Of a DNA stretch of 30,610 nt, positions 2,281 to 17,443 are shown piece by piece. The position numbers and the translations under genes were made by a program. The notes under the pieces are model-generated. The model searched no databases and had not been told where the DNA came from. It was given only the letters and a program-made list of their open reading frames with translations. This stretch comes from a virus. Within the stretch, counting starts at the first letter, position 1. Each line of letters opens with the position of its first letter. Location: positions 1-30,610 of IMG/VR virus record IMGVR_UViG_3300021368_001273; one strand, given 5' to 3'.

Positions 2281-2503
2281 CTAATCCGTGCTCTCGTCTA
2301 ATTCGTTTGAACTCTCGTTTCATTTTCCATGTTTGATACTTAACCACTGTACCAATAGTAATAATATACCATCGTCGTTTGAGTCGTACTACAAACCAGC
2401 GGAACTGTAAATCAATGAATGTTGCTACATTGGCATCTATTGCCATGAGTATCATAATGACCGCTGCTAACGTCAATAACGTTAGATAGTATGACTCTAC
2501 CAT
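2273..2503 (-). CDS. small membrane protein with basic cytoplasmic tail (76 aa)
   Basis: A GTG at 2507-2509 is possible, but the ATG at 2501-2503 has AGAGG 6 nt upstream and is preferred. The protein begins MVESYYLTLLTLAAVIMILM, a hydrophobic stretch at about residues 5-23 that looks like one transmembrane helix, with weaker hydrophobic segments around 33-40 and 46-55. The C-terminal half is very basic (VRLKRRW; KMKREFKRIRREHG), suggesting the tail faces the cytoplasm. It overlaps both flanking oxygenase genes (8 and 7 bases), so it is co-translated with them. No family is recognised; a membrane anchor, or a host-envelope effect, are both possible. Confidence 0.7.
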   Translation of the reverse strand: MVESYYLTLLTLAAVIMILMAIDANVATFIDLQFRWFVVRLKRRWYIITIGTVVKYQTWKMKREFKRIRREHGLDD

Positions 2504-3135
2504 ATACACCTCTTTGATGATCGTGGAGCGTTGATTGCTGTAAGATATGGTTGTTCAGCAGCAACTTTAATTTCATTACGAAAGACACAGTTCCATAGAA
2601 TAGTCTTCGTTCCGTTGGATACTTTCACACCCTTATGAATGTGATAGTGATCAACAGGAAAGCATAGTACAGATCCTTTCTTAGGTTTGACTGATATTTT
2701 ATCATTCATAAACCTAGTCTCACCACCATCAAAGTCATCATTCAGATAAAATATGTATGAGAACTCAGCATGATTTGCTGGTGATTGGTCTGCGTGCCAA
2801 TCATATGAATCGCTCTCATTATACTGTCTCATGATATTTTGTCCACGCCAGACAATGTTATCACCAAACAAAGAATCGTGTTCCCAGTTATAGAATATGA
2901 AATCATTATTGGAAACATAATATTGATTTGCTTGTCTTACCCACTTCCATGCTATATCATCTAACTCAGCAACATCAGTAAGATCATATGTGTCATTATC
3001 TCTTCTACTATTCCTGAAGTCTGGTTTTACAGCAGGATTGTAGAATCCCACCACACCAAGGAAGTATTTAATTTCATCATCAGGAATAAAGTTATCGATC
3101 TCCCAAATGTATTTGGTGTGCTTGGTTACGTTCAT
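2497..3135 (-). CDS. 2OG-Fe(II) oxygenase with Lys at the 2OG-binding position
   Basis: A 212-residue dioxygenase of the prolyl-4-hydroxylase-like superfamily. H114-A-D116 (YDWHADQSP) and H167 form the iron triad; FDGGETRF (135-142) and PKKGSVLCFP (151-160) are typical neighbouring strands. The residue ten positions after H167 is K177 (NGTKTILW), where the downstream paralogue has Arg. Lysine at this site is known in collagen-type prolyl hydroxylases, so activity is still plausible. The ATG overlaps the methylase stop as ATGA. An N-terminal region (EIDNFIPDDEI) matches the usual P4H start. The substrate is unknown. Confidence 0.88.
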   Translation of the reverse strand: MNVTKHTKYIWEIDNFIPDDEIKYFLGVVGFYNPAVKPDFRNSRRDNDTYDLTDVAELDDIAWKWVRQANQYYVSNNDFIFYNWEHDSLFGDNIVWRGQNIMRQYNESDSYDWHADQSPANHAEFSYIFYLNDDFDGGETRFMNDKISVKPKKGSVLCFPVDHYHIHKGVKVSNGTKTILWNCVFRNEIKVAAEQPYLTAINAPRSSKRCIW

Positions 3136-3974
3136 GCTAAGAATGCCTCCAGTGCTCCTACTTTTGGTTTCACCTTCTCAGGATATTTAACAATAACTAG
3201 TTCTGTCTTATCATAACGCTTGGTGCCAGACATTTGATATGGGAATGTAAGATACCTGAACTCAGTCCACCCATCATAGAGAGCACGAACGCTATCACTA
3301 TTGTCATAGGACATTACAAACCCACCTTTGTGTTGCTTCAGTGTCTCACAGAACTTCTCATGGTCAAATGATTTGTGAAGAGCACCGTCTTTGCCATAGT
3401 AGTGACTAACAGTCTCATAATATGGTGGGTCCAGGTATAAGAAGTCATTTTCATGTAGTGGGATGGTGTCGAAGCACGACCCATGGCAGAACGACACGTT
3501 GGGAGCATGAAAATTCCTAAGTTTATCAATGCCCACCAATCTGAACTCTGCTCTACTACGAACAGTAGAACATCCGATCTTACCTGAGTACGAACCCTTG
3601 ATTGCAATGTAAAATGACAGTGCTCGCTCCCACTTGTCCTCACTATCTAACCCTGGGAGGAACGTTTTGTAGTGGTCACTATCAACTAGTGGGTAGTGCT
3701 GCTCCGCCATGTCGGCAAGGATGGCAGCACCACCATCACCACACACAATCTCCCAGAAGTCTGCCAGGGGTTGGAAGACATCATAACCTTGGACCTTGAC
3801 ACCCTCGCTGGCAATCAGCATCTCAGTGCTGCCACCACCCCAGAAGGGAGACACAAGATATTCGATGCCTGGGTTGACATCACGAATAATCTTGATAAGA
3901 TCCTTCTTCATCCTATTCTTACCACCAGCATAGCGGTAGAGAGAATGATTGGTTACTTTTTGAGTTTTGGCCAT
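3132..3974 (-). CDS. dam: D12-class DNA N6-adenine methyltransferase (Dam-like)
   Basis: The 280-residue protein has the D12/Dam order of motifs: an N-terminal LYRYAGGKNRM (residues 12-22), the SAM-binding motif variant SPFWGGGSTE (42-51), an acidic strand YDVF (64-67), and the catalytic DPPY at 182-185. Length fits the Dam family (about 270-290). It methylates adenine in DNA; GATC is the usual target of this family, but the specificity cannot be read from the sequence. In phages such enzymes protect DNA from restriction. The start lies inside the last 22 bases of the HNH gene, and the stop overlaps the oxygenase ATG (ATGA), so it is part of the helicase-HNH-methylase-oxygenase operon. Confidence 0.9.
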   Translation of the reverse strand: MAKTQKVTNHSLYRYAGGKNRMKKDLIKIIRDVNPGIEYLVSPFWGGGSTEMLIASEGVKVQGYDVFQPLADFWEIVCGDGGAAILADMAEQHYPLVDSDHYKTFLPGLDSEDKWERALSFYIAIKGSYSGKIGCSTVRSRAEFRLVGIDKLRNFHAPNVSFCHGSCFDTIPLHENDFLYLDPPYYETVSHYYGKDGALHKSFDHEKFCETLKQHKGGFVMSYDNSDSVRALYDGWTEFRYLTFPYQMSGTKRYDKTELVIVKYPEKVKPKVGALEAFLA

Positions 3975-4948
3975 GAATAGGTGTTACGGAGGACTTTAGC
4001 GGTAAACTTCTCTCTATCATACTTCACTGCCACATGATTTGACAACTCAATACACTCACACATAATGTTTACATATGAGTCATTGTTGATCTCACCATTG
4101 ACATACTTGGCAGCACCAACACGTACAGTACGATAAATCTGACGTGCTAGTTCTTTATCACCACGTAGATACTCATTGAGTACAGTGTTAAGAACCTCTT
4201 TGTAGTTGCCCTGACTACCACCAGGACGTGCTACACCTGCCTTTGTCAATCGAAATGGTTGTAGAGATGACATACCAATGTTTCTCCACATATACTTCTC
4301 ATACTTGGCAGGACAGATGTCAAGGTAAGCACGTAGATCATCCTCTTCCATAGAAAGAATGCTAACCTTAGCACGTTGACCCTTGTCAGATGCTTTCTTG
4401 AGGTCTTTGTACCACTGGTTGAACTCATCTTCACCGTTAGCAGCACGTTTCTCCCAGCGATTGATGAACTTAGTCATACGAGACTGCTTACGATTCTCGT
4501 TGACGTTGTATGCTACCAGGAACCAGTTGTCAGGATGATCTCCACCATTGGCGATGATATGCTCTACCTGAAAGTCCAGAACGTTGTAAGGACCAGTGTG
4601 AGTGTAGGCACAGCGTCCACCTTGGTTGAGATATAGCTGGCAGATCAGAATACCACGACCATGTGTAGGATTCTTGGTGAGACTATCAGACTCTGGATCA
4701 TACCAACCCAGTGTATTCTCACCATCTCCACAAATACCCTGCTGTCCTGATTTACGTACCATGGCACGATCAGGTGTGGAGAGATTGTTGTAGTATTCTT
4801 CTGCTTCTTCCCATGATACGTCACGAACCATGACAGCATCACGTACTACCTGGCGACCCATAAGTAGGTTCTGCTTATTCTTAATCAGACCCTGACATTG
4901 TTCCCAGTCAAGGATCTGATTTCCGATGACACGTGTTTGATTCTCCAT
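3953..4948 (-). CDS. HNH endonuclease
   Basis: A 331-residue protein with an HNH nuclease core in the middle: CAYTHTGPYN (113-122), FQVEHIIANGG (126-136), then NWFLVAYNVNENRKQ (141-155). H130 is the candidate general base and the Asn-rich segment supplies the N positions. The C-x2-C zinc pairs of some HNH families are missing, with only C103 and C113 nearby. About 110 residues precede and 175 follow the core, more than in a minimal HNH protein. The ATG overlaps the helicase stop by one base (TAATG). It could be a homing endonuclease, a packaging/recombination nuclease, or the nuclease part of a restriction-like operon; the overlap with both neighbours argues mildly against a recent homing insertion. 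Confidence 0.82.
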   Translation of the reverse strand: MENQTRVIGNQILDWEQCQGLIKNKQNLLMGRQVVRDAVMVRDVSWEEAEEYYNNLSTPDRAMVRKSGQQGICGDGENTLGWYDPESDSLTKNPTHGRGILICQLYLNQGGRCAYTHTGPYNVLDFQVEHIIANGGDHPDNWFLVAYNVNENRKQSRMTKFINRWEKRAANGEDEFNQWYKDLKKASDKGQRAKVSILSMEEDDLRAYLDICPAKYEKYMWRNIGMSSLQPFRLTKAGVARPGGSQGNYKEVLNTVLNEYLRGDKELARQIYRTVRVGAAKYVNGEINNDSYVNIMCECIELSNHVAVKYDREKFTAKVLRNTYSWPKLKK

Positions 4949-6195
4949 TAGACAGTGACAGAAACAGCGGGGAGACCCTTGACGAAGATAGTATCGACAA
5001 GGTTTTGAAGGCGTTTGATAGTAGGAGCACCGTAGTTCTTGAAGACAGGAACAATGACCTTGCCAGTAGACTTACGATACATGTCGAACTTGCCTGGGAT
5101 AATCTTACCACAAGCAATGTCAGCAGCGTCGTCTTTGTTAAGACGAATGACACGACCGACAGTCTGTGCCATTTGGATGACATCCAGTTGACGAAGGAAC
5201 ACACAGTGTGTTAGACCGTGGACGTTGATACCTTCAGACAGGATGCTGTAGTGGAAGATCACAAACTTACGATTAGGATCTTTGCCCCAAGCATTGAAGG
5301 TGTCGAAGAACTGCTCACGGTTGACCTTAGTCTTGTTCACATAAGCACCGAACTTACTGGTGATGTGAAGTACATCGTAACCCTTGTCATGGAAGAAGTC
5401 AAGGACATTAGTCTTAGACAGCAGGTTGAACATGATCTTGCTGCTAGGAGCAGCGACCAAGATCTTGTTACCAGCAGCATCAATATCCTCAATCAAGTTG
5501 GTGAGTGTGTCCTTGTCAGACTCGTAGGAGAACTTACCCTTGACTCGCTCGAAGTCAACCTCGTAAGAAACAACCTCAGGAGCAAGAATGCTGCCGTTGT
5601 TGACCAGTTCGGGAGCAGGAACAGACTCAAGCACAGAACCATAGACCATGCTATTGTTCATGCCACGACCATAAGCAGAACGAGTGTGCTTAGGAGTAGC
5701 AGTAAAGAAATAGTAGGACTTAGCATCAACGTTGAGCACAGACTCAAAGAAGTCACGACGGACAGAGTTGTGTGCCTCATCATAATAGATACAGTCAATG
5801 TCAATGCCTGCCTCTACAATACGACGGAGTGAATTGTATGTGGTGAAGATAACTTGGTGGATACCAGCAGTCTTACAGACAGCATCGTGACACTGAATCT
5901 TCTGAACCTTGGTGCTGCTGCCGAAGGAAGTCTCACCACTGTGAACGTGGAAGAACTCAGCATCGACATCACCATTGAAAGCAGTCCAGAACTCATCACA
6001 GAGTTGGTTTGCCAGCAGAATACGTGGGGCGACCACTACAATAGTCTGTGGCGTGGTAGCAGCAGTCAGACGACGCTCAGCATCCTTGATCATGATAAGA
6101 GTCTTGCCACCACCTGTAGGGATGATAACCTGACCATGAGTGTTGTTCTCAAGAGCAGCAAGAGCACGCTGCTGGTGAGGACGGAGGGTGAGCAT
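4948..6195 (-). CDS. SF2 DEAH helicase, UvsW/ResIII-like
   Basis: The 415-residue protein shows the full set of SF2 motifs: LRPHQQRAL (4-12), Walker A IPTGGGKT (25-32), motif Ia VVAPRILLANQL (54-65), DEAH (139-142), TATP (165-168), motif V SEGINVHGL (320-328), and motif VI QTVGRVIR (344-351). T4 UvsW, which unwinds branched DNA and R-loops and helps shut off origin replication, is the closest phage relative I can name. This protein is shorter than T4 UvsW, and the RxxQ motif begins at residue 4, so it lacks UvsW's extra N-terminal domain. For that reason no gene symbol is given. AAGG precedes the ATG. It is first in its operon, 25 nt after an extended -10 box. Confidence 0.85.
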   Translation of the reverse strand: MLTLRPHQQRALAALENNTHGQVIIPTGGGKTLIMIKDAERRLTAATTPQTIVVVAPRILLANQLCDEFWTAFNGDVDAEFFHVHSGETSFGSSTKVQKIQCHDAVCKTAGIHQVIFTTYNSLRRIVEAGIDIDCIYYDEAHNSVRRDFFESVLNVDAKSYYFFTATPKHTRSAYGRGMNNSMVYGSVLESVPAPELVNNGSILAPEVVSYEVDFERVKGKFSYESDKDTLTNLIEDIDAAGNKILVAAPSSKIMFNLLSKTNVLDFFHDKGYDVLHITSKFGAYVNKTKVNREQFFDTFNAWGKDPNRKFVIFHYSILSEGINVHGLTHCVFLRQLDVIQMAQTVGRVIRLNKDDAADIACGKIIPGKFDMYRKSTGKVIVPVFKNYGAPTIKRLQNLVDTIFVKGLPAVSVTV

Positions 6196-6220: not shown

Positions 6221-6229
6221 ATTATAGCA
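6221..6229 (-). promoter_or_regulatory. extended -10 promoter (TGCTATAAT) of the helicase operon
   Basis: On the minus strand 6229-6221 reads TGCTATAAT, a textbook extended -10, ending 25 nt before the helicase ATG. No -35 consensus is visible; that region is taken by the terminator hairpin at 6233-6253. It likely drives the helicase, HNH, methylase and oxygenase operon with a host sigma70-type polymerase. Confidence 0.65.
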
Positions 6230-6232
6230 GAA

Positions 6233-6253
6233 AACCTCCCGTGGTGGGAGGTT
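6233..6253 (-). terminator. intrinsic terminator after the chaperone/unknown gene pair
   Basis: Positions 6233-6240 pair perfectly with 6246-6253 (8 bp, 5-nt loop GTGGT). On the minus strand the hairpin ends in GGTTTTC, giving a short T-run. It lies 11 nt past the stop of the 6265-6645 gene and separates the late structural block from the helicase operon. Confidence 0.75.
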
Positions 6254-6264
6254 CGTGCCAGTTA

Positions 6265-6645
6265 TTAAAGTGTCTCTGGTCTCGGTTCTCGTAGACCAGT
6301 CATGCCGTCGTTTCCTCGTACATACAATCCATTACTAAAAATAACGTATTGAATGAAATAATCAGTATCGTCTGGTTTAGATGTTGGGAAGTTATCTCTA
6401 CAGAAGTCATCTGCTGCCTCCTCAGTAGTGAACTCTACAAATGTAAACTCATTGTACAATAGTTTATCGAAGATAGCAGGGTTCTCCGACTGCATATTCA
6501 AATAGTATGCTGAATAGATAGCATTTGCTTTAGTGGCATCATCTACACCATCAGGACCAACAGTTCTCAACAATACAATGGTTGATTGTGTTGCCTCTGT
6601 GTAGTGTCTCATCCACTCTACAAAGTCTCTTGTGGTAACGTACAT
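6265..6645 (-). CDS. hypothetical protein (126 aa)
   Basis: The ATG at 6643-6645 follows the stop of the 6650-7582 gene by 4 nt; the terminator lies just beyond the stop. The product begins MYVTTRDFVEWMRHYTEATQ and is a mixed alpha/beta protein with a central segment FVEFTTEEAADDF reminiscent of small ferredoxin-like folds, where a beta strand is followed by an amphipathic helix. There is no signal peptide or catalytic motif. Its position after the adhesin and the chaperone-like gene suggests a tail-fibre assembly or late function, but this is only context. Confidence 0.7.
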   Translation of the reverse strand: MYVTTRDFVEWMRHYTEATQSTIVLLRTVGPDGVDDATKANAIYSAYYLNMQSENPAIFDKLLYNEFTFVEFTTEEAADDFCRDNFPTSKPDDTDYFIQYVIFSNGLYVRGNDGMTGLREPRPETL

Positions 6646-6649
6646 AATA

Positions 6650-7582
6650 TCAATCCGTAATGTTTAGGTTTTCAATAACAGCACCAGTTAGTCCTTCATT
6701 CAGACTATACTGATTGATCTTATCCCAAATCTGTTTTGATAGTGGTAGTCCACCGTTTTCTTCTCTTTGTTTAGCAAGAATAGCAGACTGTTTGATTTCA
6801 CCAACAATTTGTTCAGTAGCATATTGTCCTGTCTCAACAGCATTAAATTTGAAATGAGCAGGGATAGAGAGATACTCATTCTCATGATCTGGGTCTAGTT
6901 CATGATAAGCAAAGGGATCAATAGGCCAGCTATATTCTTCATCCCAGATGAGATAATCTAGCATGTCATCAAACTCATCTGGAGTTTTAATATTCTCACG
7001 TAGATATGTTCTGTAAGCAGTCCACAATGCTAGTTCACCAGTAAACTTTTCGGTAGCATCTGGCAGTTGTGTCCAGTCAGAACCACGAAGTAGTTTCTCT
7101 AGTGTTGCTTTCTTCACTTCATCAGTTTTGATGAGATATTCTTGTCTAGTAGCAATATCAATGATTGCTTTCGACTTGACTACTTCAGCATCAACTTGCT
7201 GTACTGCTAGTGCTGCCTTGAGAATATCAAATAGTTCTTTTACTTGAGATAGGGTAAGATCATTTTTTTCATATCTCAACCATTTTGAGGTTTTAGTAGA
7301 AAAGTCAAACTTCAACTTTTCTTTCTCAAAGATATGCTCGCCATTCTCAAAAACTGAGAAACTTACGATTCTATCATTTTCATTAGACCACTCAGCTGGC
7401 AGATTATTATGAAGGTTGGTATTAATCGTAGGTTCCAACTTAGTGGCAAGGTATGTCCACTCACCATCCTGCTTCACACGCACAACCATTAGACGATGAA
7501 GAGCGTCCCATTCAAGAATAGGTTTCCTCTCTTCAGGTGGTAAGATTCTCTCGAATTGAAAATCGTCTGGATTAAACGCCAT
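6650..7582 (-). CDS. putative tail-fibre assembly chaperone-like protein (310 aa)
   Basis: Residues 162-196 read LEKLLRGSDWTQLPDA followed by TGELALWTAYRTYLREN, matching the pattern of the phage tail assembly chaperone domain (LL..TDWTQLPD...W..YR..LR), known from C-terminal parts of tail-fibre assembly proteins. A helix-rich region (108-160) precedes it, and an acidic aromatic segment (DDMLDYLIWDEEYSWPIDPF) follows. The protein is much longer than typical chaperones of this type and has a beta-rich N-terminal third. It follows the 1914-residue adhesin, as gp38 follows gp37 in T4, so folding or trimerising that protein is a natural role. A virion component carrying the motif is the main alternative. 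Confidence 0.6.
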   Translation of the reverse strand: MAFNPDDFQFERILPPEERKPILEWDALHRLMVVRVKQDGEWTYLATKLEPTINTNLHNNLPAEWSNENDRIVSFSVFENGEHIFEKEKLKFDFSTKTSKWLRYEKNDLTLSQVKELFDILKAALAVQQVDAEVVKSKAIIDIATRQEYLIKTDEVKKATLEKLLRGSDWTQLPDATEKFTGELALWTAYRTYLRENIKTPDEFDDMLDYLIWDEEYSWPIDPFAYHELDPDHENEYLSIPAHFKFNAVETGQYATEQIVGEIKQSAILAKQREENGGLPLSKQIWDKINQYSLNEGLTGAVIENLNITD

Positions 7583-7605
7583 CTCTATCAGGGTGCTTTA
7601 TTTAC

Positions 7606-7613
7606 TATTTAGA
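7606..7613 (-). promoter_or_regulatory. T4-late-like promoter box (TCTAAATA)
   Basis: The minus strand reads TCTAAATA across the stop codon of the 1914-residue adhesin, 23 nt before the ATG at 7582. It differs at two positions from the T4 late consensus TATAAATA. The short spacer is otherwise AT-rich (AGTAAATAAAG). A possible internal late promoter for the chaperone-like gene. Confidence 0.35.
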
Positions 7614-10600
7614 ATGCTTTGATCATCCACTTAGTCCACGTGTATGGTGTGACTAGTGGTACTTCATCTTGTGGATCAAATTCAGGAACAGGAATCAACT
7701 GCTTAGTTTGCTGTAGTGTGAACGTACCAGGGAGAACCTGAAGACCTACATCTAGAGCAGAGAACTCAAGATCAACAGAGGAATTAGCACCACCAGAGAA
7801 AGATTGTAGTGCTGCACTCTGTGTACCACCAGTCTCATTGTTACCATATCCATAAATGGCGCTATTATTATGAGCAGTCAGTGAGACATAGTGATTGTGC
7901 TTCAATTTGTTGACTGGGTTGTAGGAACTAACAGTAATCTCTTTGTCTGGAATGTCAACAGTAGACAAGAACTTACGAGCGTTAGTACCACCAAAAGCAC
8001 CAGTCTGTCCAGTGAATGGAGAACCATCTAGGTCAATATATGAATTGATTTCATTATATTCTCCACCACCAATACCATTCTGTTGGACAGTAACAGAACC
8101 ATATTGACCAGCGGTGTTAACACCCTGATATCCAGGGTTAGTACCATTCGACCAGTTCTGAACGCTACCATTGTGCCAACCACTACCATCACAACCAGTA
8201 GATCCAGGTAAGTTACTTGCACTCAGACTATAATCCTCTAGAGCATATCCCCATAGGTTGAACGAGAATGTACCAGATGATGTGAATGTAGCATTAGTGC
8301 CAGAACCTAGGTTCGAAGCATTAGGTGGAACAACATCAATACCATAACCACCAGTACCACCCCAGTTAACTTTACCTTTGAACCTACCTGGGTCAGAATT
8401 ACCAGAGATCAAATCGTGGAAGTGTAGTGGAATATCATAAATCTTCTCTGGGTCTAGTCCAACAGGACATGTTGTCTTACCAGATGTGAAGAATTCAATC
8501 TGTCCAGTAACATCAGAATAACCAGTAGTGGTTACCTGAGCAATACCAAAGTAATCGGAAGTTTGTGCTGGTTGTCCAGTAGCAGGAGTTTCTACTTGTT
8601 CTAGTTCATCAACACCAGGATCAGCAATCTTATCAATAAACCACATACCACCAAATGCTCCAGGTTCAGCATTACCAGGAGAACCAGATTGTTTTGTTGG
8701 TGTGTACGATGGTGTTAGTCCAGGAGAAGAAGCGGCGTTGCCATCAATAACACCAGTGCCCTTGACATATCTGTTTCTAAGGTCAGGAACTCTAAAGTAT
8801 GTGTCACCACCTACTAGTTTAGCACCATACTCATACTCAAGCACTTCAAATAGCAATGGATACTCTACTGGATTGTAGTATGAACCATCACAATATACCC
8901 AACTTGGGAATCTAGATCCTGGTTTGCCATCTAATGTACCCCAAGCGTCAGATTCAGTACCATCTTGGAATACAGGCATGATAGCTCCAACAGGCAAACC
9001 ATCAAACTTAGTATTAATTCTAATCTGACTACCACTGAATGTATTACCAATATACTTACATGGTGTGATAGAACTATACCACTGACTCTCTAGAGGATCT
9101 TGTACAGCAGCAGGAGTTTGAACAGAGAATCCTGTTGTAAATGATCCAGCAGTAACAAATGTTGTTCTAGTAAATCCAGCAATATCAGAAGATGTCATCT
9201 GTACTTGGAACTGATCTCCATTAGATACATTTCCCTGAGATGCTACAGTATATGAAAGGAATGCTCCACCATTAATAGAGATCAATGCTCCATTTGTAGC
9301 ATAAAGACCAATACTGATACCTGTAGATAGACCACTGATAGTAATAGTTTCAACAGATGTTGTTTGTACACCAGGACCAGTGGCAAGTACACTAGAGAAT
9401 GCGAAGTCATCGGGTTCTGTACCGAATGCTCCACCATTAGTTACACTCCAAATTCTCTCATAAAATCCAGCAGTTGAACCAGCAAGACCAATCTTTGTAT
9501 TGAAGACTCTTCCTTCGCCAATAACATCACTAGTTGTGTAGTTCAAAGCAAGAGTATCAAAGTTCGATACTGTTGTCTGTGTAACACCAGCACCTAGATT
9601 TACACCATTCTTGATAATATATGCTAGGTCAGTGTTAGGACCCATGTCACCAAAACCTTGCTCAACGATAAAGTCAACAGTGGTATCAAGACCTTGAATC
9701 AGGTTGGTATTACTAGTATATTCTGTGAGTAGATCAGCAGGGTTAACAGGCAACCAAGAGTAACCAGTAGGTGTACTATCAGATTCAGCACCAGTAGTAA
9801 CATTCCAGTCAACAGGATCTCCAGTACCAACAGTAATTTCTGTACTTACAGTGGATTGGAAGTCGGGAGATGATGTAATTCTAATACGGAACTGCTGACC
9901 ATTTGAAATGGTAGTACCTGTAGCACCACTAACGTAGGCATTTCCTTCTACACTAATCTCAGCACCACCAGTAGCAGTAATATTTACAGGTACAGTAATA
10001 CCAGAGATCTGGACTTCTTCACTTATAACGAGAGTGCTAATACTAACACCAGTTACATCTTCAAGGAAGAATGGGTTTGGTTCAGAATCAGGTGGTGGAC
10101 CAGCATTGATATCAAAGTTAGCAGTAGTATCACCCACAGTGACAGCAGTTGTGTATGTGGTGTTAAACTGATTGCCAGTTGTTGCTTGGACTTGAATATA
10201 TTGGTTGTTAAAGACCACAACACCTGCTTCAAATGCTCCACAACTAGAAGGATTAGAATTAGTACATACTCTTACAGCAGATGTAATACCAGGAGAGTTA
10301 GTTGTTACCGATACACCACCTGTAATACCAGTAATCTGTTCAAGATTAGATTCATATGTTGTTTGTACCGTAGCACCGTCAATAGTATCAAAGCTGAAAG
10401 GATCTGGTGTGATGTCTTGCTGTGAGTATTCAACATAAACAGCACCTTCTTCACCAGCAGCGGCACCTTGACCACTAACTTGTGCTGCTGATAGTGGTGT
10501 ACAATATGTGGCATTATAATAAGCACCACCACCATTACCACCAGTAGCATCTAGATCACTAGTTTGTAGTGTAGTTCCACCTTCACTGGTGGAATTAATT

Positions 10601-13353
10601 AGTGTACCAGCGGATCCATCATATCCACCACCACCGCCACCAGGACCACCACCCTGACCAGTTCTATCAGGAGCATCATCACCAGGAAGATTTAGGTTAA
10701 TAGTGGTAGTTTGAACTGTGCCATTGGTGTTGTAGTTACCATATTGAATTTCTAATGGCGTGGCAGTATCGTTACCAGCACCACCGCCGCCACCACCACC
10801 GCCAGCAAGGGCGATCAGTGTACCATTACTGAGTGTAATAGCAGAAGCGCCGCCACCTCCACCACCAGCACCAGAGGCGTCTCCAGGACCAGCATCGCCA
10901 CCGTCTCCACCATAACAATAACCAAAACCACCAGTACCACCACCAGTTCCAGCTACATAATTAGAACCATCATTACCAGCGTCAGCAGGATAAATTCTTA
11001 GTTTATAGTCAGGATTGCCGAATTGGTTAGTTGGCCAAACATTAATAGGTATCTCTACAAGGACTCTAAGAATATTGCCAGAACCACCAGGACCACCTGA
11101 ACTATTTGGTACGTCACCACCACCTTCTCCACCACCAGCACCAACTAGTGAGAGATAGAATTGAGTGGCAGCAAAAGCAGGAATAGTAAACTCTGTATAA
11201 TCAGTGAATCCCTCTCCAACCCATGTCTCAGTAATGAAATCACCAAGAGTGTTGAACTGTCTAGTATAGACTCTAAACGTATCAATTATAGCATCACCTG
11301 CCAGCACATCAGGACCGTTACCAATTCTATAAGACAACTGTGCTAGACCACCAGATGCCGAAGAAGCATTCTGTCTAACAAATAATGTATAATTTGTTGG
11401 CAGAATAGTAACACTAGATCCCCAGTTAACTTGGTCTACACTGAGACTACCAACACCACCAGTAATTGATGCTGTAGTAGCAGCATCCAATCCCCCTATT
11501 TTTACCTCAGCAATTTGTTCTACACCTGGGTCAGACAAAAAGACAGGGGTAGCATGGAATGGATAAGGAACTGTTCTCTCTTCTCTAGTAATAAGAGTAA
11601 TCGAATGAGTAGTTTCCGAGTAAGTTGGTGATGATGGACCACCAGTAGGGTTACCAACAGATGGGTTACCATCTGGAGGACCTTGTAGTCTAACAGTAGC
11701 AGTTACACTGTTTTCATATGTACCATCAGCACGTATCTTCAGGTTGAGAGTGTCATTGTTTTCAACTGTTAATTGTTGTACCCAACTACCAGTATTATTC
11801 TTTCTAATAAAACCACCAGTGCCATCAATGATAGCAGTCATCTTCACACCCTGACCATTCAGTTGTGATACCAAGTTCTGAGCAGTGCTTGGACTATTGT
11901 TTGCTAGATTAGTAAATGGTGACTCTAGATTATTATATGTACCACTAGAGTATTCTGTACCAAGACCAGTGATAGTAACATCACCAAAATACATGAAGTC
12001 TGGTTCTGCTCTGTTATGTGTAGCGTCACCAGATACTAGAACCTTTTCATATTCAGCAACAGTCAAAGTACAAACTTCACCACCACTACCAGTAATAGTT
12101 ACAGTATCACCAATACTATAACCATAACCAGGATCACTGATAATTAGATCATCAAATCCATCGGTGGTGACCTGAACTTGCATGCTGTTTCCGTTACCAC
12201 CAGAAACAGGATATTCTGTACCATTAGTGAGGAATCCAGTGGTTGGTGCTGTTCCTACTAGGTTTAGTTTTACACCATAGGTAAAGATGGGAGCAATACT
12301 AGCAGTAGCTGGATATCTATCTACCTCAGTCCATGACTGCCAGTTATCATCTACATCACCCAGAGTCTGTGTTACCTGATAAGAACCAGATCCGTATGTA
12401 CCAGCAGTAGTATTTTCGTAACTATTACCACCTCTAGTGTAAGTATCACCACCAGTAGCAAATACAGTTACAGTACCAGTTCTCTTCTGAGTATAATTAG
12501 GACCGTTACGAATTCTAGTATAGAGAGTATCACCAAGAACTAACTGGTCACCGATAGATTGAGACCAGTTACTGTTATCAGCAGAGATGTCTACAGAACT
12601 TGTAGAAGATGCTCTAAGTACAACATCACCATCAATACCCGTGATGGGAATATCGTAGTAAAAATAATCATCTCCACCATCAGCAGGAATCTGCTGGTCT
12701 ACTCTATCAGTAAAAGTAAACTGGTTAATATTCTGATCTTGTGCTCTAGTTGTAATACCCCACGTTCTACTAAATGATGTAGATGGTTGTCCAATGTTAG
12801 TACCAAATGTTTCGTCACCAACATTGAATGTCACCACAGTGCTAGTAACATACCAGTCGGGAACAGTTACTCTTAGTTGTACTTTATCTCCAGGTTGTAG
12901 ACCACCAGTACCATCAGCAACATTGGCACTGATAGATGATCTCCAGGAATCAAAGGAACCATTCCTATAGATTCTAAATCTTGCTGTTGAATTGTTTGTA
13001 TTATTATTCTTAGGACCGTTAGATACAGCAGAGATGCTAGCAGGAATAGGAATCTCAAAATTCGCTAGGTCAACTACATTAGAATAGTATGTTGTATTTC
13101 TTTGAAAGGTTGTAGTACCACCACTGCTACTAGTTCCATTAAAAGCACCAGTAAATCCAGATTGATTTGTAAAGTTAAAGGTATCTGGTAGCGCATCAGG
13201 AATTTTTGTACCAAATGTGACGCCATCGGGGTCAGATCCAGTACCAATTTGTACATTAACAGTAACCTGAGTGTTCCAGGTACTTGGAGTTGGATATCGT
13301 ACCTGTACTTTATCCCCAGGATTTACGTTTACAGGACTACTGCTAAATGGCAT
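7609..13353 (-). CDS. giant multi-domain tail adhesin with Ig-like repeats and collar domain (1914 aa)
   Basis: AGGA precedes the ATG at 13351-13353. The order of parts is: N-terminal repeated beta modules with GDKVQ(V/L)R and TVTV motifs (about residues 1-700); a Gly-rich block (about 740-920); four Ig-like modules (about 983-1418); a phage tail-collar domain (about 1453-1535, VGAIMPVFQ through YCDGSYYNPVEYPLLFEVL to VPDLRNRYVKGTG); and a His-x-His-bearing C-terminal region with H1644-F-H1646 and H1819-N-H1821. The collar domain and HxH pairs are features of T4 gp12 and the gp37 tip, where HxH motifs bind metal in a trimer. It is therefore very likely a host-contacting tail fibre or adhesin. 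The chaperone-like gene lies directly downstream. Residue choice varies along the protein but the frame is uninterrupted. Confidence 0.85.
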   Translation of the reverse strand: MPFSSSPVNVNPGDKVQVRYPTPSTWNTQVTVNVQIGTGSDPDGVTFGTKIPDALPDTFNFTNQSGFTGAFNGTSSSGGTTTFQRNTTYYSNVVDLANFEIPIPASISAVSNGPKNNNTNNSTARFRIYRNGSFDSWRSSISANVADGTGGLQPGDKVQLRVTVPDWYVTSTVVTFNVGDETFGTNIGQPSTSFSRTWGITTRAQDQNINQFTFTDRVDQQIPADGGDDYFYYDIPITGIDGDVVLRASSTSSVDISADNSNWSQSIGDQLVLGDTLYTRIRNGPNYTQKRTGTVTVFATGGDTYTRGGNSYENTTAGTYGSGSYQVTQTLGDVDDNWQSWTEVDRYPATASIAPIFTYGVKLNLVGTAPTTGFLTNGTEYPVSGGNGNSMQVQVTTDGFDDLIISDPGYGYSIGDTVTITGSGGEVCTLTVAEYEKVLVSGDATHNRAEPDFMYFGDVTITGLGTEYSSGTYNNLESPFTNLANNSPSTAQNLVSQLNGQGVKMTAIIDGTGGFIRKNNTGSWVQQLTVENNDTLNLKIRADGTYENSVTATVRLQGPPDGNPSVGNPTGGPSSPTYSETTHSITLITREERTVPYPFHATPVFLSDPGVEQIAEVKIGGLDAATTASITGGVGSLSVDQVNWGSSVTILPTNYTLFVRQNASSASGGLAQLSYRIGNGPDVLAGDAIIDTFRVYTRQFNTLGDFITETWVGEGFTDYTEFTIPAFAATQFYLSLVGAGGGEGGGDVPNSSGGPGGSGNILRVLVEIPINVWPTNQFGNPDYKLRIYPADAGNDGSNYVAGTGGGTGGFGYCYGGDGGDAGPGDASGAGGGGGGASAITLSNGTLIALAGGGGGGGGAGNDTATPLEIQYGNYNTNGTVQTTTINLNLPGDDAPDRTGQGGGPGGGGGGYDGSAGTLINSTSEGGTTLQTSDLDATGGNGGGAYYNATYCTPLSAAQVSGQGAAAGEEGAVYVEYSQQDITPDPFSFDTIDGATVQTTYESNLEQITGITGGVSVTTNSPGITSAVRVCTNSNPSSCGAFEAGVVVFNNQYIQVQATTGNQFNTTYTTAVTVGDTTANFDINAGPPPDSEPNPFFLEDVTGVSISTLVISEEVQISGITVPVNITATGGAEISVEGNAYVSGATGTTISNGQQFRIRITSSPDFQSTVSTEITVGTGDPVDWNVTTGAESDSTPTGYSWLPVNPADLLTEYTSNTNLIQGLDTTVDFIVEQGFGDMGPNTDLAYIIKNGVNLGAGVTQTTVSNFDTLALNYTTSDVIGEGRVFNTKIGLAGSTAGFYERIWSVTNGGAFGTEPDDFAFSSVLATGPGVQTTSVETITISGLSTGISIGLYATNGALISINGGAFLSYTVASQGNVSNGDQFQVQMTSSDIAGFTRTTFVTAGSFTTGFSVQTPAAVQDPLESQWYSSITPCKYIGNTFSGSQIRINTKFDGLPVGAIMPVFQDGTESDAWGTLDGKPGSRFPSWVYCDGSYYNPVEYPLLFEVLEYEYGAKLVGGDTYFRVPDLRNRYVKGTGVIDGNAASSPGLTPSYTPTKQSGSPGNAEPGAFGGMWFIDKIADPGVDELEQVETPATGQPAQTSDYFGIAQVTTTGYSDVTGQIEFFTSGKTTCPVGLDPEKIYDIPLHFHDLISGNSDPGRFKGKVNWGGTGGYGIDVVPPNASNLGSGTNATFTSSGTFSFNLWGYALEDYSLSASNLPGSTGCDGSGWHNGSVQNWSNGTNPGYQGVNTAGQYGSVTVQQNGIGGGEYNEINSYIDLDGSPFTGQTGAFGGTNARKFLSTVDIPDKEITVSSYNPVNKLKHNHYVSLTAHNNSAIYGYGNNETGGTQSAALQSFSGGANSSVDLEFSALDVGLQVLPGTFTLQQTKQLIPVPEFDPQDEVPLVTPYTWTKWMIKAF
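9100..10405 (-). repeat. four tandem Ig-like modules inside the 1914-aa adhesin
   Basis: Modules of about 95-120 residues begin near 10405 (DPFSFDTIDG), 10083 (NPFFLEDVTG), 9780 (GYSWLPVNPADLL) and 9417 (DDFAFSSVLATG). Each repeats an ISG(I/L) strand, an xxNGxxFxVxxTSS strand and a closing VTVG/FxVxT strand. The modules are diverged at DNA level. Related modules occur in the three Gly-rich paralogues (ISGIDMP or LAGVDMP, then NGNxVxLRTT). Confidence 0.6.
10600..11140 (-). repeat. Gly-codon-rich low-complexity block
   Basis: Clusters of GGN codons (seen on the plus strand as runs of CCACCACC, for example 10626-10660, 10778-10805 and 10847-10885) encode poly-Gly runs within the adhesin. Such runs form polyglycine-II-like bundles in some phage tip adhesins. 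Slippage or recombination here would change adhesin length. Confidence 0.6.
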
Positions 13354-13380
13354 GGATTCCTACTCTATCACGTGCTATTT

Positions 13381-13557
13381 CTACTTGTTATTTAGGTCAG
13401 ACTGCCTAACGTTAATCCAAGGACCATTGTTAATTCTTACCTGAATTGGTTTATCTGCTGTGATCTCTTGAGGTTGATCTCCATCAACTTCAAAGATTCT
13501 AGACTTATAATGTGGATTACTTGGATCCATATCATATACCACAGGAAATTTTTTCAC
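13381..13557 (-). CDS. 58-residue protein sharing the paralogues' C-terminal motif
   Basis: The open frame reaches a TTG at 13569, but a GTG at 13555-13557 is preferred: GGAG lies 7 nt upstream and the GTG overlaps the previous stop as GTGA. The product starts (M)KKFPVVYDMDPSNPHYKS and contains KPIQVRINNGPWINVRQ, clearly related to the last 15 or so residues of the three Gly-rich paralogues (PDAQVxINxGxWQNxR). It looks like a free-standing version of that terminal module, perhaps a capping subunit or a broken-off gene end. Function is unknown. The adhesin gene starts 27 nt after its stop. Confidence 0.65.
   Translation of the reverse strand: MKKFPVVYDMDPSNPHYKSRIFEVDGDQPQEITADKPIQVRINNGPWINVRQSDLNNK
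13389..13396 (-). promoter_or_regulatory. T4-late-like promoter box (CCTAAATA)
   Basis: The minus strand reads CCTAAATA inside the last codons of the 58-residue gene, 35 nt before the ATG of the 1914-residue adhesin. It keeps the TAAATA core of the T4 late consensus. Candidate late promoter for the adhesin and chaperone-like genes. Confidence 0.35.
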
Positions 13558-13763
13558 AATGTACTCCAATAATGATTAGCAATGTTCTGAAACAGGGCAT
13601 CTTCAGCAGAAATATCATCTTCTTGAGAAAAGTGAGTCTCGTAAGAGTTTACCGACACTGTTTCTCCATCTACAGTTGTAGTCACAGTCTTTCTAAAACC
13701 AACTTGCTTAAGCAGAGGTCTGACTTCAATAGCATCTATGACTTCGGTTCTTTCGACTGCCAT
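13554..13763 (-). CDS. hypothetical protein (69 aa)
   Basis: The frame extends to a GTG at 13796, but the ATG at 13761-13763 is favoured: it comes one base after the TAA of the upstream adhesin paralogue (TAAGATG), and a candidate late promoter box at 13797-13804 would place the transcript start downstream of the GTG. The product begins MAVERTEVIDAIEVRPLLKQ, has a beta-hairpin region (RKTVTTTVDGETVSVNSYETHF) and an acidic helical end. No family is recognised. Its place between adhesin genes suggests a structural or assembly role. Confidence 0.65.
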   Translation of the reverse strand: MAVERTEVIDAIEVRPLLKQVGFRKTVTTTVDGETVSVNSYETHFSQEDDISAEDALFQNIANHYWSTL

Positions 13764-13764
13764 C

Positions 13765-15429
13765 TTACATTTCTCGGGTGTTTTGCCATACTCCACTATT
13801 TATGCTGACCTGAGCATCTGGGTCATCCAATTTGATTTCCACAGGAACTTCAATATCGTTAGCATCAATTTGTGCTGATAATACATAGTCTGAAGGATTA
13901 TTAGTAATCAAGTCAATATCTTCATAAGGATATTTACCAACGTTATCAGCATAATCAAAACTCTCAGCAATCACAGGAGCCCGAGTGGTAACAGTAACAT
14001 TAAATGTTCCACTAGGTGTTGTCACTGGTATTATTTTACTATTAGTCTTACCGACCTGAGCGTTAGCAGGGAGTCCACTTAGGTCTGTATTAAACGGAAG
14101 AGTAGTTGTTCTCAATTTTACTTGATTGCCGTTATTGAAATTTTTAGAACCAGAAAAACTATTGTTGAGACCCATAAAGTTACCACTACCTGATGTGGAA
14201 ATAGTAGTTGGCATATCAACACCAGCAAGTATACCGAGGTTTAAATCGTAAGTAGTATTCTCTTCTAGATTTTGGAACGATGTAGTCCAATTAGTTGATG
14301 GTGTATTATCATTAGTAATCTGAACATCTATGCTAGCAAAATCAGACGAACTACCTGCTACAGCACTGAGAGTAATAGTGTGACTAACAGGACTTTGATT
14401 TGCTTCTACATTTGACTGAGTAATTGGAGTCCAAGCATAAGTAAGAGAATCACCAGAATTAAAGACAGTGCTGCCCCATGGACCAGATAAAGTAGCAGTT
14501 ATAAAATCTACAATAGCAAAATTAAATACAATTGTATCGTCAGGAATTCCATCAGAACTGTTGCCACCAGTGTAAGTAAATTGAGTAATTTCTGGTACTA
14601 GAAGATTATACGATATAATTATTCTCCCATCACCACTTCGTAATCCTTGATTACTGGATAATGTAACTAACTGACTATTATATCGTGATCTAGCAGCTGT
14701 GTTATATGCCACTGAAGTTTGAGCACCGCCACCGCCGCCACCTGTGCCGCCACCTGATCCACCGCCACCACCGTTGGCACCATTAAACAAAGCAAAAGTA
14801 CCATTAACAGCAGAAAAAGCACTAGCTGTAGCAGGAGTAGAACAACTACTAGATCCTCGACCACCACCACCGCCACCCGAAACGGCTGCTACTACATTAC
14901 TGATTTTTAAAACAGAGGCACCACCGCCTCCTCCACCACCACCAGCATAGGCAGTACAATAGACAGGAAAATTTTTACAGCAAGCACAAAATACAATACC
15001 AGCATTGCGTCTAGGAGGATCACAGAATCCACCACATCCACCGTAATTAGGATCAGGTTGCTGACCACCAGGACATCCATCACAATATCCACCAGTGTGT
15101 ATACATTGTGTTCCACATTGATATTGATATGGACTAGCGGATCCAGATCCGCCATTTACTCCACCACCTCCAGCAGATCCACCTCCACTAGCACCTCCAG
15201 AACCATCACCACCTCTCTTTCCAATCTGTAATTGAAATGATCTTGCTACCAAATCTTGATTTACTTTAAATATAGAATCTCTAGACTTACCAAAACTAGT
15301 AGAACTACCACACCCAGATCCACTACCACCCTGAGCGCCAGCGATCCGTACAAATATATCCTTGGCGTTGCCAGGAATATTGACAGTTGTATTAGATGTA
15401 TATGTTGTACTAACAGGTGTTAAAGACAT
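13765..15429 (-). CDS. Gly-rich adhesin-like protein with Cys-rich insertion (554 aa)
   Basis: First 30 residues form beta strands (TTVNIPGNAKDIFVRIAG), followed by a Gly-rich domain (about 31-236) of the phage glycine-rich type. Within it residues 105-158 hold ten cysteines (C-x3-C-x6-C-x2-C-x12-C-x3-C-x11-C-x-C-C-x6-C). A PKD/Ig-like domain follows (about 278-375), then an Ig-like module with LAGVDMPTTISTSGSG (about 376-483), and a C-terminal module with PYEDIDLITN (501-510) and PDAQVSINSGVWQN (537-550). Residues 374-554 parallel 299-477 of the 477-aa paralogue. The start overlaps the upstream stop as TAATG. Likely a virion surface or tail-tip protein; direct proof is lacking. Confidence 0.78.
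   Translation of the reverse strand: MSLTPVSTTYTSNTTVNIPGNAKDIFVRIAGAQGGSGSGCGSSTSFGKSRDSIFKVNQDLVARSFQLQIGKRGGDGSGGASGGGSAGGGGVNGGSGSASPYQYQCGTQCIHTGGYCDGCPGGQQPDPNYGGCGGFCDPPRRNAGIVFCACCKNFPVYCTAYAGGGGGGGGASVLKISNVVAAVSGGGGGGRGSSSCSTPATASAFSAVNGTFALFNGANGGGGGSGGGTGGGGGGAQTSVAYNTAARSRYNSQLVTLSSNQGLRSGDGRIIISYNLLVPEITQFTYTGGNSSDGIPDDTIVFNFAIVDFITATLSGPWGSTVFNSGDSLTYAWTPITQSNVEANQSPVSHTITLSAVAGSSSDFASIDVQITNDNTPSTNWTTSFQNLEENTTYDLNLGILAGVDMPTTISTSGSGNFMGLNNSFSGSKNFNNGNQVKLRTTTLPFNTDLSGLPANAQVGKTNSKIIPVTTPSGTFNVTVTTRAPVIAESFDYADNVGKYPYEDIDLITNNPSDYVLSAQIDANDIEVPVEIKLDDPDAQVSINSGVWQNTREM
13797..13804 (-). promoter_or_regulatory. T4-late-like box (CATAAATA) inside a coding region
   Basis: The minus strand reads CATAAATA, one change from TATAAATA, within the terminal INSG codons of the 554-residue gene. 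It lies 33 nt before the ATG at 13763. The other two paralogues use different codons at this point and lack the box, which argues that it is a specific feature here rather than a by-product of the conserved protein motif. Confidence 0.45.
13901..13932 (-). repeat. 32-bp near-identical patch, copy 1 of 3
   Basis: This block encodes the YPYEDIDLITN segment in the 554-residue protein. It differs at one base from 16145-16176 and at two bases from 17580-17611, although flanking DNA is much more diverged. Confidence 0.7.
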
Positions 15430-15806
15430 TACTCTTCCTTCTCTGCTTCCAACTCCGCCATCGCTTGATCCAAGACTTCCTGTTCCATTGGACTCAATGG
15501 TTGAGTCATAATTGTTTCCTGAGCATCAGGTTTTTGAAACGCTAGATTAGTAAGAATATCACTCAGAAGAACTTCTTCGGTTATACCCAATCTATTAGTA
15601 ACTCTAGTTATTTCTTCATCAACAAATTTTTTAACTTTCCTACCTTCTTCTGTACCCTGAAAATGGTTAACGAGTGCCTGAAATTGAGGCATCGTTAGAA
15701 CATATAATCTCTTGTGAAGTTCAGGCAGTTCTTCAATGGTGATGTCAGCATCCAAATTAGGATTAGCTTTATAAAATTGTCTAATTAACTTGTCAATTTT
15801 GGTCAT
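15429..15806 (-). CDS. helical protein with acidic tail (125 aa), possible assembly factor
   Basis: GTG codons at 15818 and 15815 are in frame but overlap the upstream gene; the ATG at 15804-15806, 5 nt after that gene's TGA and preceded by GGTGAG, is preferred. The protein begins MTKIDKLIRQFYKANPNLDA, is mostly helical, and ends in an acidic helix (MEQEVLDQAMAELEAEKEE). There is no membrane segment or catalytic motif. Its stop overlaps the ATG of the Cys-rich adhesin gene (TAATG). A dedicated chaperone for that protein would fit the arrangement, but the sequence alone does not show it. Confidence 0.7.
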   Translation of the reverse strand: MTKIDKLIRQFYKANPNLDADITIEELPELHKRLYVLTMPQFQALVNHFQGTEEGRKVKKFVDEEITRVTNRLGITEEVLLSDILTNLAFQKPDAQETIMTQPLSPMEQEVLDQAMAELEAEKEE

Positions 15807-15811
15807 ATTAC

Positions 15812-15982
15812 TCACCACTTTGAAGGATTAGCAGGGCAACGCATCATAGGCACCAGCACTTTAGCAGGCATAAAACAACCACATAATTTACATTGTTTTG
15901 TTGATGCTACAAAATTCTCACACTCAATACAAATCTTCATTTTCTTGACAGCTTCCTGCTTCATTTCTGAAAGACTTTTCAT
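15812..15982 (-). CDS. small zinc-ribbon-like protein (56 aa)
   Basis: The ATG is at 15980-15982 and the TGA at 15812-15814. The product begins MKSLSEMKQEAVKKMKICIE and has CIEC (18-21) and CKLCGC (31-36), a CxxC-x9-CxxC arrangement typical of a zinc ribbon or rubredoxin-like knuckle, with another Cys at 49. A basic helix precedes the zinc motif. A perfect T4 late box TATAAATA sits 18 nt upstream, so this small gene starts a late transcript that also covers the helical protein and the Cys-rich adhesin. It could act in assembly or bind nucleic acid; the sequence does not decide. Confidence 0.72.
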   Translation of the reverse strand: MKSLSEMKQEAVKKMKICIECENFVASTKQCKLCGCFMPAKVLVPMMRCPANPSKW

Positions 15983-16000
15983 AATGATAGTGCTTTTTGA

Positions 16001-16008
16001 TATTTATA
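16001..16008 (-). promoter_or_regulatory. perfect T4 late promoter box (TATAAATA)
   Basis: The minus strand reads TATAAATA directly after the TGA of the 16009-17442 gene and 18 nt before the ATG at 15982. It is the exact T4 late consensus recognised by the gp55/gp33 late sigma system in T4. The surrounding bases TGATAT and ATATCA also make a 6-bp inverted repeat (15999-16012). Confidence 0.75.
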
Positions 16009-17442
16009 TCATATGCTTCTAGCGTTTTGCCACGAACCGTTGTTAATTCTTACCTGAGCATCTGGTTGATCTACCTTAACTTCCATAGGAATTTCAATAT
16101 CATCAACGTCAATATTAGCCGATGTTCCATATTGTTGTGGACTATTAGTAATCAAATCAATATCTTCATAAGGATAGTTGCCAACGTCATCAGCATAATT
16201 AAAGTCTTCTTTAATTCTTGGTTTTCTAGTAGTGAAATTTATGTTAACTGTTCCGCCAGGGTGAGTAATTTGTACTGTCTTTGTGTTTGTTTTGCCGAAT
16301 GTACCATTTTCTCCACTGACATCTGTGTTAAATGGCAATGAAGTAGTCCTTAACTGTACTGAATCACCGTCATTAAAGTTTCTAGACCCAGAAAAAGATC
16401 CATTTTTTCCAATAGCATTACCACTACCACTAGTAGATATAGTACATGGCATATCAACACCAGCAAGAGTTCCAATAACTACTACAGTTACTGTGTTAGG
16501 TTCTAAATTAGTCCATGATTTAGTCCAATTGTTTGATGGTGTATTGTCATTCTTTACCTTAGCAGTCTTCGTGCTGGTCACCGTTCCGCCAGGACCTGAT
16601 GCTGTTAGTGTATAAGTTTTTTGGGCAGGACTTGTGCCGTTAGCATTTGATTGTAATCCAGTATTTACATTGAGTGTTCCACTAGTACCAACAGAACCAA
16701 TACCTCGGTTTATACTGACATTATCAGCATATTGTGTGTTCCATGTAATAGAAACATTAGCATCTGGAATACCATCAGTATTGTAGTTATTACCTACAGA
16801 ATAAGAAGTAATACTTGGGTTATGATACTCCCACACAATTCTAGCACCACCTTTAGCACCTGATCCAGCACTACCACCATCATTTCCTGCTCCACCAGCA
16901 CCATAATTAGCACCCGATCTACCGCCTGGGCAACTGCCGCTGGTTCCATTTAGATCAGTTCCCCTACCACCTTTACCATTACCACAGCGTCCAGAGTTTC
17001 CACTTTGATTACCTGCTCCACCACCATCTTGTCCATCGTCGTCATCAGATCCAGATCCACCACCTGAAGTAATATCACCAGCATCAGAATAACCACCGCC
17101 ACCACCACCAGAGTCGTCAGTTCCAGTACGACCACCAGTAGCACGAACGTTTACAATGTTACCAGGACCACCTTTAATTTCTGATGTGCCACCATTATTG
17201 CCGTCATCACAACTAGGTGACGAACCACCAGATGCTACCTTAATTGATAGCGTCTGACCAGAAGAAAAATTTCTAGTGGATCTAGAAAATCCACCGCCTC
17301 CTCCGCCGCCACCTTCATCATCTCCATCACAATCTCGATAACCAGAAGCACCACCACCAATCACTGTACAAGTGACACTTTTAGTAGCAAATGGTGCTGT
17401 CCAACTGTAGTTTCCAGGATTAGGGTAACTATTTGTAGGCAT
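16009..17442 (-). CDS. Gly/Asp-rich adhesin-like protein (477 aa)
   Basis: Starts MPTNSYPNPGNYSWTAPFAT, the entry strands of a phage glycine-rich domain; residues 29-200 are Gly-rich with an Asp-rich patch (SGSDDDDGQD, 130-139) and close with ARIVWEY (200-206). A PKD/Ig-like domain (about 209-297, WNTQYADNVSINRG) is followed by an Ig-like module with LAGVDMPCTISTSGSG (326-341) and NDGDSVQLRTT (357-367), then the shared C-terminal module PYEDIDLITN (424-433) and PDAQVRINNGSWQNARSI (460-477). The ATG comes one base after the stop of the previous paralogue; GAGAGA upstream serves as ribosome binding site. Likely a virion surface protein. Confidence 0.78.
   Translation of the reverse strand: MPTNSYPNPGNYSWTAPFATKSVTCTVIGGGASGYRDCDGDDEGGGGGGGGFSRSTRNFSSGQTLSIKVASGGSSPSCDDGNNGGTSEIKGGPGNIVNVRATGGRTGTDDSGGGGGGYSDAGDITSGGGSGSDDDDGQDGGGAGNQSGNSGRCGNGKGGRGTDLNGTSGSCPGGRSGANYGAGGAGNDGGSAGSGAKGGARIVWEYHNPSITSYSVGNNYNTDGIPDANVSITWNTQYADNVSINRGIGSVGTSGTLNVNTGLQSNANGTSPAQKTYTLTASGPGGTVTSTKTAKVKNDNTPSNNWTKSWTNLEPNTVTVVVIGTLAGVDMPCTISTSGSGNAIGKNGSFSGSRNFNDGDSVQLRTTSLPFNTDVSGENGTFGKTNTKTVQITHPGGTVNINFTTRKPRIKEDFNYADDVGNYPYEDIDLITNSPQQYGTSANIDVDDIEIPMEVKVDQPDAQVRINNGSWQNARSI
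16145..16176 (-). repeat. 32-bp near-identical patch, copy 2 of 3
   Basis: Encodes the same YPYEDIDLITN segment in the 477-residue paralogue, with one base different from each of the other two copies. Confidence 0.7.
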
Positions 17443-17443
17443 T

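Follow-up and report, generated by a model that had tools for sequence, protein, structure and literature searches.

An HNH nuclease-adenine methylase gene pair behind a core cyanophage helicase: a possible restriction-like conflict system

In a 30.6-kb virus fragment (IMG/VR record IMGVR_UViG_3300021368_001273, positions 1 to 30,610; hereafter the window), open reading frames (ORFs) on the minus strand encode, in this order, a helicase, a predicted HNH nuclease and a D12-class DNA adenine methylase. Comparison with related loci shows that the actual unit consists of HNH and methylase, a pair placed behind a core helicase, and not of three parts. The nuclease and methylase genes are adjacent and co-inherited, as in a type II restriction-modification system, and the pair, together with the purge of a short degenerate palindrome, YGCR, from the genomes that carry it, suggests a virus-borne cut-and-protect system. 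We tentatively favor a phage-encoded, restriction-like conflict pair of HNH and methylase that is expressed from the transcription unit of the helicase, and we put the probability of this reading at slightly below even.

Results

The order helicase-HNH-methylase recurs in 35 IMG/VR contigs (near-duplicates included) besides the window, and no empty slot was seen. Among contigs that have this methylase and readable upstream sequence, none has the methylase without the HNH; likewise, 11 large helicase contigs that lack an HNH at the helicase have no HNH of this profile and no such methylase elsewhere, one of them having nothing but a cyanophage Dam of the ordinary kind (30% identical). As a control, the same HNH profile detects 10/10 of the carriers tested. 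In a 47-row helicase tree, the presence of the pair requires three changes, two of which are forced by supported branches. The first-pass annotation had named a homing HNH that is only sporadically present between helicase and methylase as the finding that would speak against joint action; no such pattern was found, HNH and methylase being present or absent together. Its proposal that nuclease, methylase and helicase act together survives for the first two, which co-occur and for which the YGCR purge described below adds some support, while the helicase drops out.

The window helicase matches Pfam ResIII (2.6e-19) and the PHROG_16 helicase (1.6e-70), has relatives in 420 phage records and is closest, among isolates, to the helicases of Synechococcus T4-like phages (Kyanoviridae; 60-64% protein identity). 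It is the same gene as the cyanophage core helicase (T4-GC 36, e.g., Syn1_045; ~44-64% identical in isolates), but in the isolates examined it is not followed by an HNH or methylase gene: Syn1, Sf-FP1 and S-RIM32 have small, unrelated genes in that place, and methylase relatives lie tens of kilobases from the helicase in the isolates compared. An N6A-methylase and a helicase have been listed as common to many, not all, cyanophages (PMC3037559). A three-gene module that includes the helicase, as envisaged in the first-pass annotation, is thus rejected, because most relatives carry the helicase without HNH and methylase nearby; it is a long-standing core gene, usually found alone in the records and isolates compared, whose promoter the HNH and methylase genes share. 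The same annotation correctly noted that the N-terminal domain of UvsW is missing. It is missing because the helicase is a different gene, with only 22-24% identity to S-CRM01 UvsW; the two largest relative contigs contain a separate, true UvsW orthologue (45-47% identical to S-CRM01 UvsW), and an assignment as UvsW was rejected.

YGCR comprises TGCA, CGCA/TGCG and CGCG and was met while checking for avoided sites. The window contains 8 TGCA where 153 are expected and 9 CGCA/TGCG where 80 are expected. Over whole contigs, 0.8-4.8% of GC dinucleotides are in a YGCR context in 13 carriers of the pair, versus 10.8-27.6% in 11 non-carriers; locus by locus, 33 carriers have observed/expected ratios of 0.00-0.25 and 24 non-carriers ratios of 0.57-0.88, with no overlap, such that purge and pair match perfectly over the 57 helicase loci. 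The depletion is seen in all three codon phases and therefore acts on DNA, not on codon choice, and at the level of 5- and 6-mers no motif longer than YGCR was found to account for it. Intermediate values are seen in L083 and L084, two relatives without the pair; the L084 contig, which is the sister of one block of carriers, stands at 0.48, which fits a purge that fades once the pair is lost.

Other short words are also rare in these phages. GGTACC is absent from carrier contigs (0 versus 132 expected), and CTCTGA is low there too. RGCY (AGCT, AGCC/GGCT, GGCC) is nearly gone from many pair-free Kyanoviridae relatives of the helicase locus (L085-L098, L106, L113-L117 and contigs G011-G021), some 17-kb loci having none at all, and most of these phages lack CCGG. 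GATC avoidance, considered as a pointer to the methylase site, is slight only and was dropped.

The HNH gene has a different history from its neighbors. Near-identical flanks hold HNH alleles that are 46-82% identical, and the HNH in the same slot of L042 and L043 is 24% identical to that of the window. Between L006 and L009, helicase and methylase DNA is ~98% identical and HNH DNA mostly 70-88%, with synonymous divergence (dS) of 0.15 for the helicase, 0.79 for the HNH and 0.08 for the methylase; the corresponding values are 0.27, 1.34 and 0.21 for L010 versus L016 and 0.24, 1.15 and 0.27 for the window versus L014. L009 and L010 provide the reverse case, with close HNH genes (dS 0.38) between distant flanks (0.74 and 1.03); these two loci have the HNH in common and not the flanks, and later recombination could have wiped out any co-conversion. 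Recombination boundaries lie near the gene junctions. The HNH data reject the helicase clade in the approximately unbiased (AU) test (p 2e-36), and the grouping of L009 with L010 is rejected by the helicase (AU p 9e-36) and methylase (5e-91) data. As these alignments and trees show, the HNH gene is a recombinationally swapped cassette whose alleles are exchanged as a unit, and exchange of this kind is expected of conflict genes.

In profile searches, the HNH protein matches phrog_3561 over residues 14-167 (E 1.5e-12). It has no Pfam match at E 0.01 and no PADLOC or above-cutoff NCBIfam match, and no known restriction-enzyme model fits it. The presumed active-site residues E/D129, H130 and N150 are kept in 20/20 aligned HNH alleles (position 129 being E or D), and the alignment would equate E129, H130 and N150 with the catalytic residues of Cas9. 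An AlphaFold model of the protein has a mean predicted local distance difference test score (pLDDT) of 86, and Cas9-type HNH domains can be aligned to its residues 43-169 (VIA-align); the alignment to Nme1Cas9 (Z 4.8, root-mean-square deviation 4.5, 94 aligned residues, 19% identity) has the same Z as unrelated helical rows whose match lies in a different part. Cas9 proteins also rank first, weakly, in a hidden Markov model (HMM) search (E 0.0036), and a Foldseek search of the whole protein against the PDB returned nothing at E 0.001 or better. An RNA-guided enzyme like Cas9 or IscB was nevertheless rejected: in Cas9 and IscB the HNH sits inside a RuvC nuclease with guide-RNA parts, whereas the window protein, of 331 residues, resembles Cas9 in the HNH core only and has no RuvC or Cas9 domain in a Pfam hmmscan at E 0.01. 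The C-terminal domain, modeled separately (pLDDT 90), has no PDB chain at Z ≥ 5 among those compared and only Foldseek matches at E > 1, which proves neither novelty nor absence. No bacterial HNH relatives came from a genome scan that detects only the two conserved words used. One shorter allele, of 286 residues (L037:5150-6010), has lost the region of the conserved R-x-GG motif by an in-frame deletion that leaves the frames overlapping.

The methylase is a clear D12 member (Pfam, 5.8e-15; 56.1 bits versus a cutoff of 22), and the DPPY motif is intact in all methylases checked; the catalytic motifs of both enzymes of the pair thus read as intact at the sequence level. Because a 156.6-kb carrier contig encodes another, ordinary Dam-like gene elsewhere, the methylase of the pair is an extra enzyme. 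No literature was found on 7m6b, the nearest solved methylase. A different D12 methylase, Dam-like by eye, stands behind the helicase of L078 (5184-6029), a relative without the HNH.

Proteins of the phrog_3561 type are scattered over several cyanophage groups at differing genome positions. The best named matches to the window HNH in a viral fold library are proteins of S-TIM5, ACG-2014f, S-N03 and S-CBWM1 (fold match at E 6e-11; the S-TIM5 protein also matches at E 2e-13). The family members S-TIM5 AEZ65730, S-CBWM1 gp174, S-CRM01 g51 and those of ACG-2014f share with the window protein a homologous HNH core, a similar C-terminal region and strong polymorphism, and several stand beside or near DNA methylase genes: in S-TIM5 and S-TIM54 the gene adjoins a C5-cytosine methylase, and in ACG-2014f it lies one small gene after Dam. 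In S-CRM01, by comparison, it lies between gp55 and gp47, and in S-CBWM1 it adjoins the major capsid protein. Unlike the short, untagged window protein, these relatives have long N-terminal extensions, and some are annotated as virion proteins. Among ACG-2014f isolates, the N-terminal part and the flanking genes are ~96% identical while the C-terminal HNH part varies, with an N6_N4-type or Eco57I-type methylase gene coming next after HNH variants. The N-terminal tag of the ACG-2014f proteins recurs on other proteins, e.g., a cytidylyltransferase, and may be a packaging signal; the window HNH carries no such tag. The ACG-2014f locus behind Dam (L120:3762-6152, L161:1863-4724, L163:1863-4541, L164:5863-8748), where the follow-on gene differs by isolate (N6_N4 methylase, Eco57I-like methylase or a 169-residue protein), looks like a polymorphic-toxin-style locus. 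In Aurunvirus-type loci (L121:4001-5683, L138:3077-5335, L140:4885-7173), the HNH part is swapped behind the same N-terminal head, and these heads adjoin a near-constant C5-cytosine methylase.

Discussion

If HNH and methylase are indeed a conflict pair, the HNH would cut the host chromosome or the DNA of a co-infecting phage inside the infected cell; the carrier phage would be spared by its own methylase and/or by the loss of the target word. We infer the cleavage by the HNH, its target, the partnership of the methylase with it and the role of the pair as the cause of the purge. Because the phrog_3561 family repeatedly neighbors methylases of different classes, a functional HNH-methylase link is supported. 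Several observations weigh against this reading. No methylase gene neighbors the family members of S-CRM01 and S-CBWM1, and the overlaps that couple the genes in the window are of a kind frequent among phages. A matched recognition sequence is unproven, since methylase alleles do not track HNH alleles (in L006 and L009, the methylases are 0.008 apart in nonsynonymous divergence, dN, and the HNHs ~75% identical), and CGCG has no adenine, so an adenine methylase cannot protect it. Signs on a site shared by HNH and methylase are therefore indirect and in conflict, the YGCR purge standing against a methylase that is constant across HNH alleles and against the adenine-free CGCG. The link between purge and pair draws on only 2-3 independent contrasts, too few to demonstrate an association of the two beyond shared phylogeny, and an attempt to do so failed. 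It is also confounded by a tail-gene cluster found only in carriers, and RGCY is purged in relatives without the pair (observed/expected 0.11-0.35 in most).

Because of these few contrasts, the tail cluster and the RGCY purge in pair-free relatives, host restriction is a live explanation of the YGCR purge. That host restriction enzymes imposed it independently of the pair is a serious possibility, if somewhat less than probable; it concerns the purge only and is compatible with either view of the pair. Carriers may share hosts, as they share a tail/virion cluster that non-carriers lack; pair-free relatives purge RGCY to a comparable degree; and prokaryotic viruses are known to counter restriction by avoiding sites (PMC6286503). 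On the other hand, the purge coincides perfectly with the pair in the 57 helicase loci, and L084 has half-regained YGCR without the pair, although it avoids RGCY as weakly as its sister block C does. A self-purged viral restriction system would go further than the favored conflict pair and is doubtful: all HNH alleles would cut YGCR in host or rival phage DNA, the phage would be safe mainly through erasing ~80-95% of its own YGCR sites, the methylase would be a back-up, and the cassettes would be swapped to escape inhibitors or rivals.

It is rather unlikely, though to be taken seriously, that the HNH instead occupies a fixed slot as a free-standing homing or marker-exclusion endonuclease, cutting rival alleles and being replaced by competing HNH alleles, with the methylase as an orphan that serves against restriction independently of it. 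Phages often have free-standing HNH genes close to core genes, and these drive local exchange (PMC10448857, PMC12724721). The slot is a recombination hot spot with conserved flanks, orphan Dam-like methylases are frequent in cyanophages, and the L078 helicase is followed by a different D12 methylase without an HNH. Such an element, however, does not readily account for the lack of an HNH-free slot allele in carriers and the joint gain and loss of HNH and methylase, for the HNH allele of L009 and L010, with which no co-converted flanks are seen today, or for the YGCR purge, which it leaves unexplained. A replication or repair unit of helicase, HNH and methylase, with the HNH as a junction-resolving nuclease like endonuclease VII, seems improbable: the HNH core does weakly resemble PHROG endonuclease VII (1.6e-4) and is coupled to the helicase, but in most cyanophages this helicase comes without the HNH, and a house-keeping resolvase is unlikely to be the fastest-diverging, swapped gene of its locus.

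Set beside known systems, the conflict pair that we favor shares with type II restriction-modification the adjacent nuclease and DNA adenine methylase genes and the avoidance of a short degenerate palindrome by carriers; it differs in being virus-encoded, in a nuclease without a matching restriction-enzyme model, and in nuclease alleles that swap under a constant methylase, a shared site being unproven. Chloroviruses encode restriction systems of their own, in which a viral nuclease-methylase pair acts on host DNA; the idea is the same, although hosts and enzymes differ, and the likeness drawn is one of concept. Homing and marker-exclusion nucleases (T4 SegF and SegG, cyanophage F-CphI, Skunavirus HNHs) likewise have their genes between core genes and are exchanged among related phages, but the window-type HNH is never absent from its slot and always comes with the same methylase. 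If the conflict reading is true, cyanophages are armed with a nuclease-methylase pair, the target word of which is readable from the phage's own genome, the question of how such lytic phages break down host DNA or shut out rivals unharmed becomes directly testable, and phrog_3561, polymorphic between nearly identical phage isolates, likely has a role in conflict. L083 and L084 provide a natural case of loss for testing cause and effect of the purge.

Organization of the locus

The three-gene arrangement, the 1- and 22-base overlaps and the extended -10 promoter described in the first-pass annotation were all borne out by the ORF and sequence check (Table 1).

Table 1. Features of the helicase-HNH-methylase locus in the window
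Feature	Position	Strand	Remarks
Helicase gene, superfamily 2 (SF2), 415 aa	4948-6195	-	Core cyanophage gene; supplies the transcription unit, not a part of the module
HNH nuclease gene (predicted), 331 aa	3953-4948	-	Cas9-like HNH core (residues ~45-169), helical family-specific C-terminal domain; swapped cassette
D12-class (DPPY) DNA adenine methylase gene, 280 aa	3132-3974	-	Putative partner of the HNH gene
Extended -10 promoter TGCTATAAT	6221-6229	-	Precedes the helicase; similar site in helicase-only phages
Terminator-like hairpin of the upstream gene, CCTCCC-ACCAC-GGGAGG-TTTT	6231-6251	-	Read from the sequence

Helicase and HNH overlap by 1 bp (TAATG), and HNH and methylase by 22 bp. The promoter stands behind the hairpin of the upstream gene and ahead of the helicase; because a TATAAT-like promoter stands at the equivalent place in Syn1 and Sf-FP1, whose helicase comes without HNH or methylase, it is not special to the module. 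Directly upstream of the helicase lies the cluster of tail and virion structural genes that is found only in pair carriers (6265-21599 in the window; counterpart at G002:14661-31084). Two 2-oxoglutarate (2OG)-Fe(II) oxygenase genes follow downstream of the methylase (1738-2280 and 2497-3135), the nearer of which overlaps the methylase by 4 bp and is missing or replaced there in several relatives.

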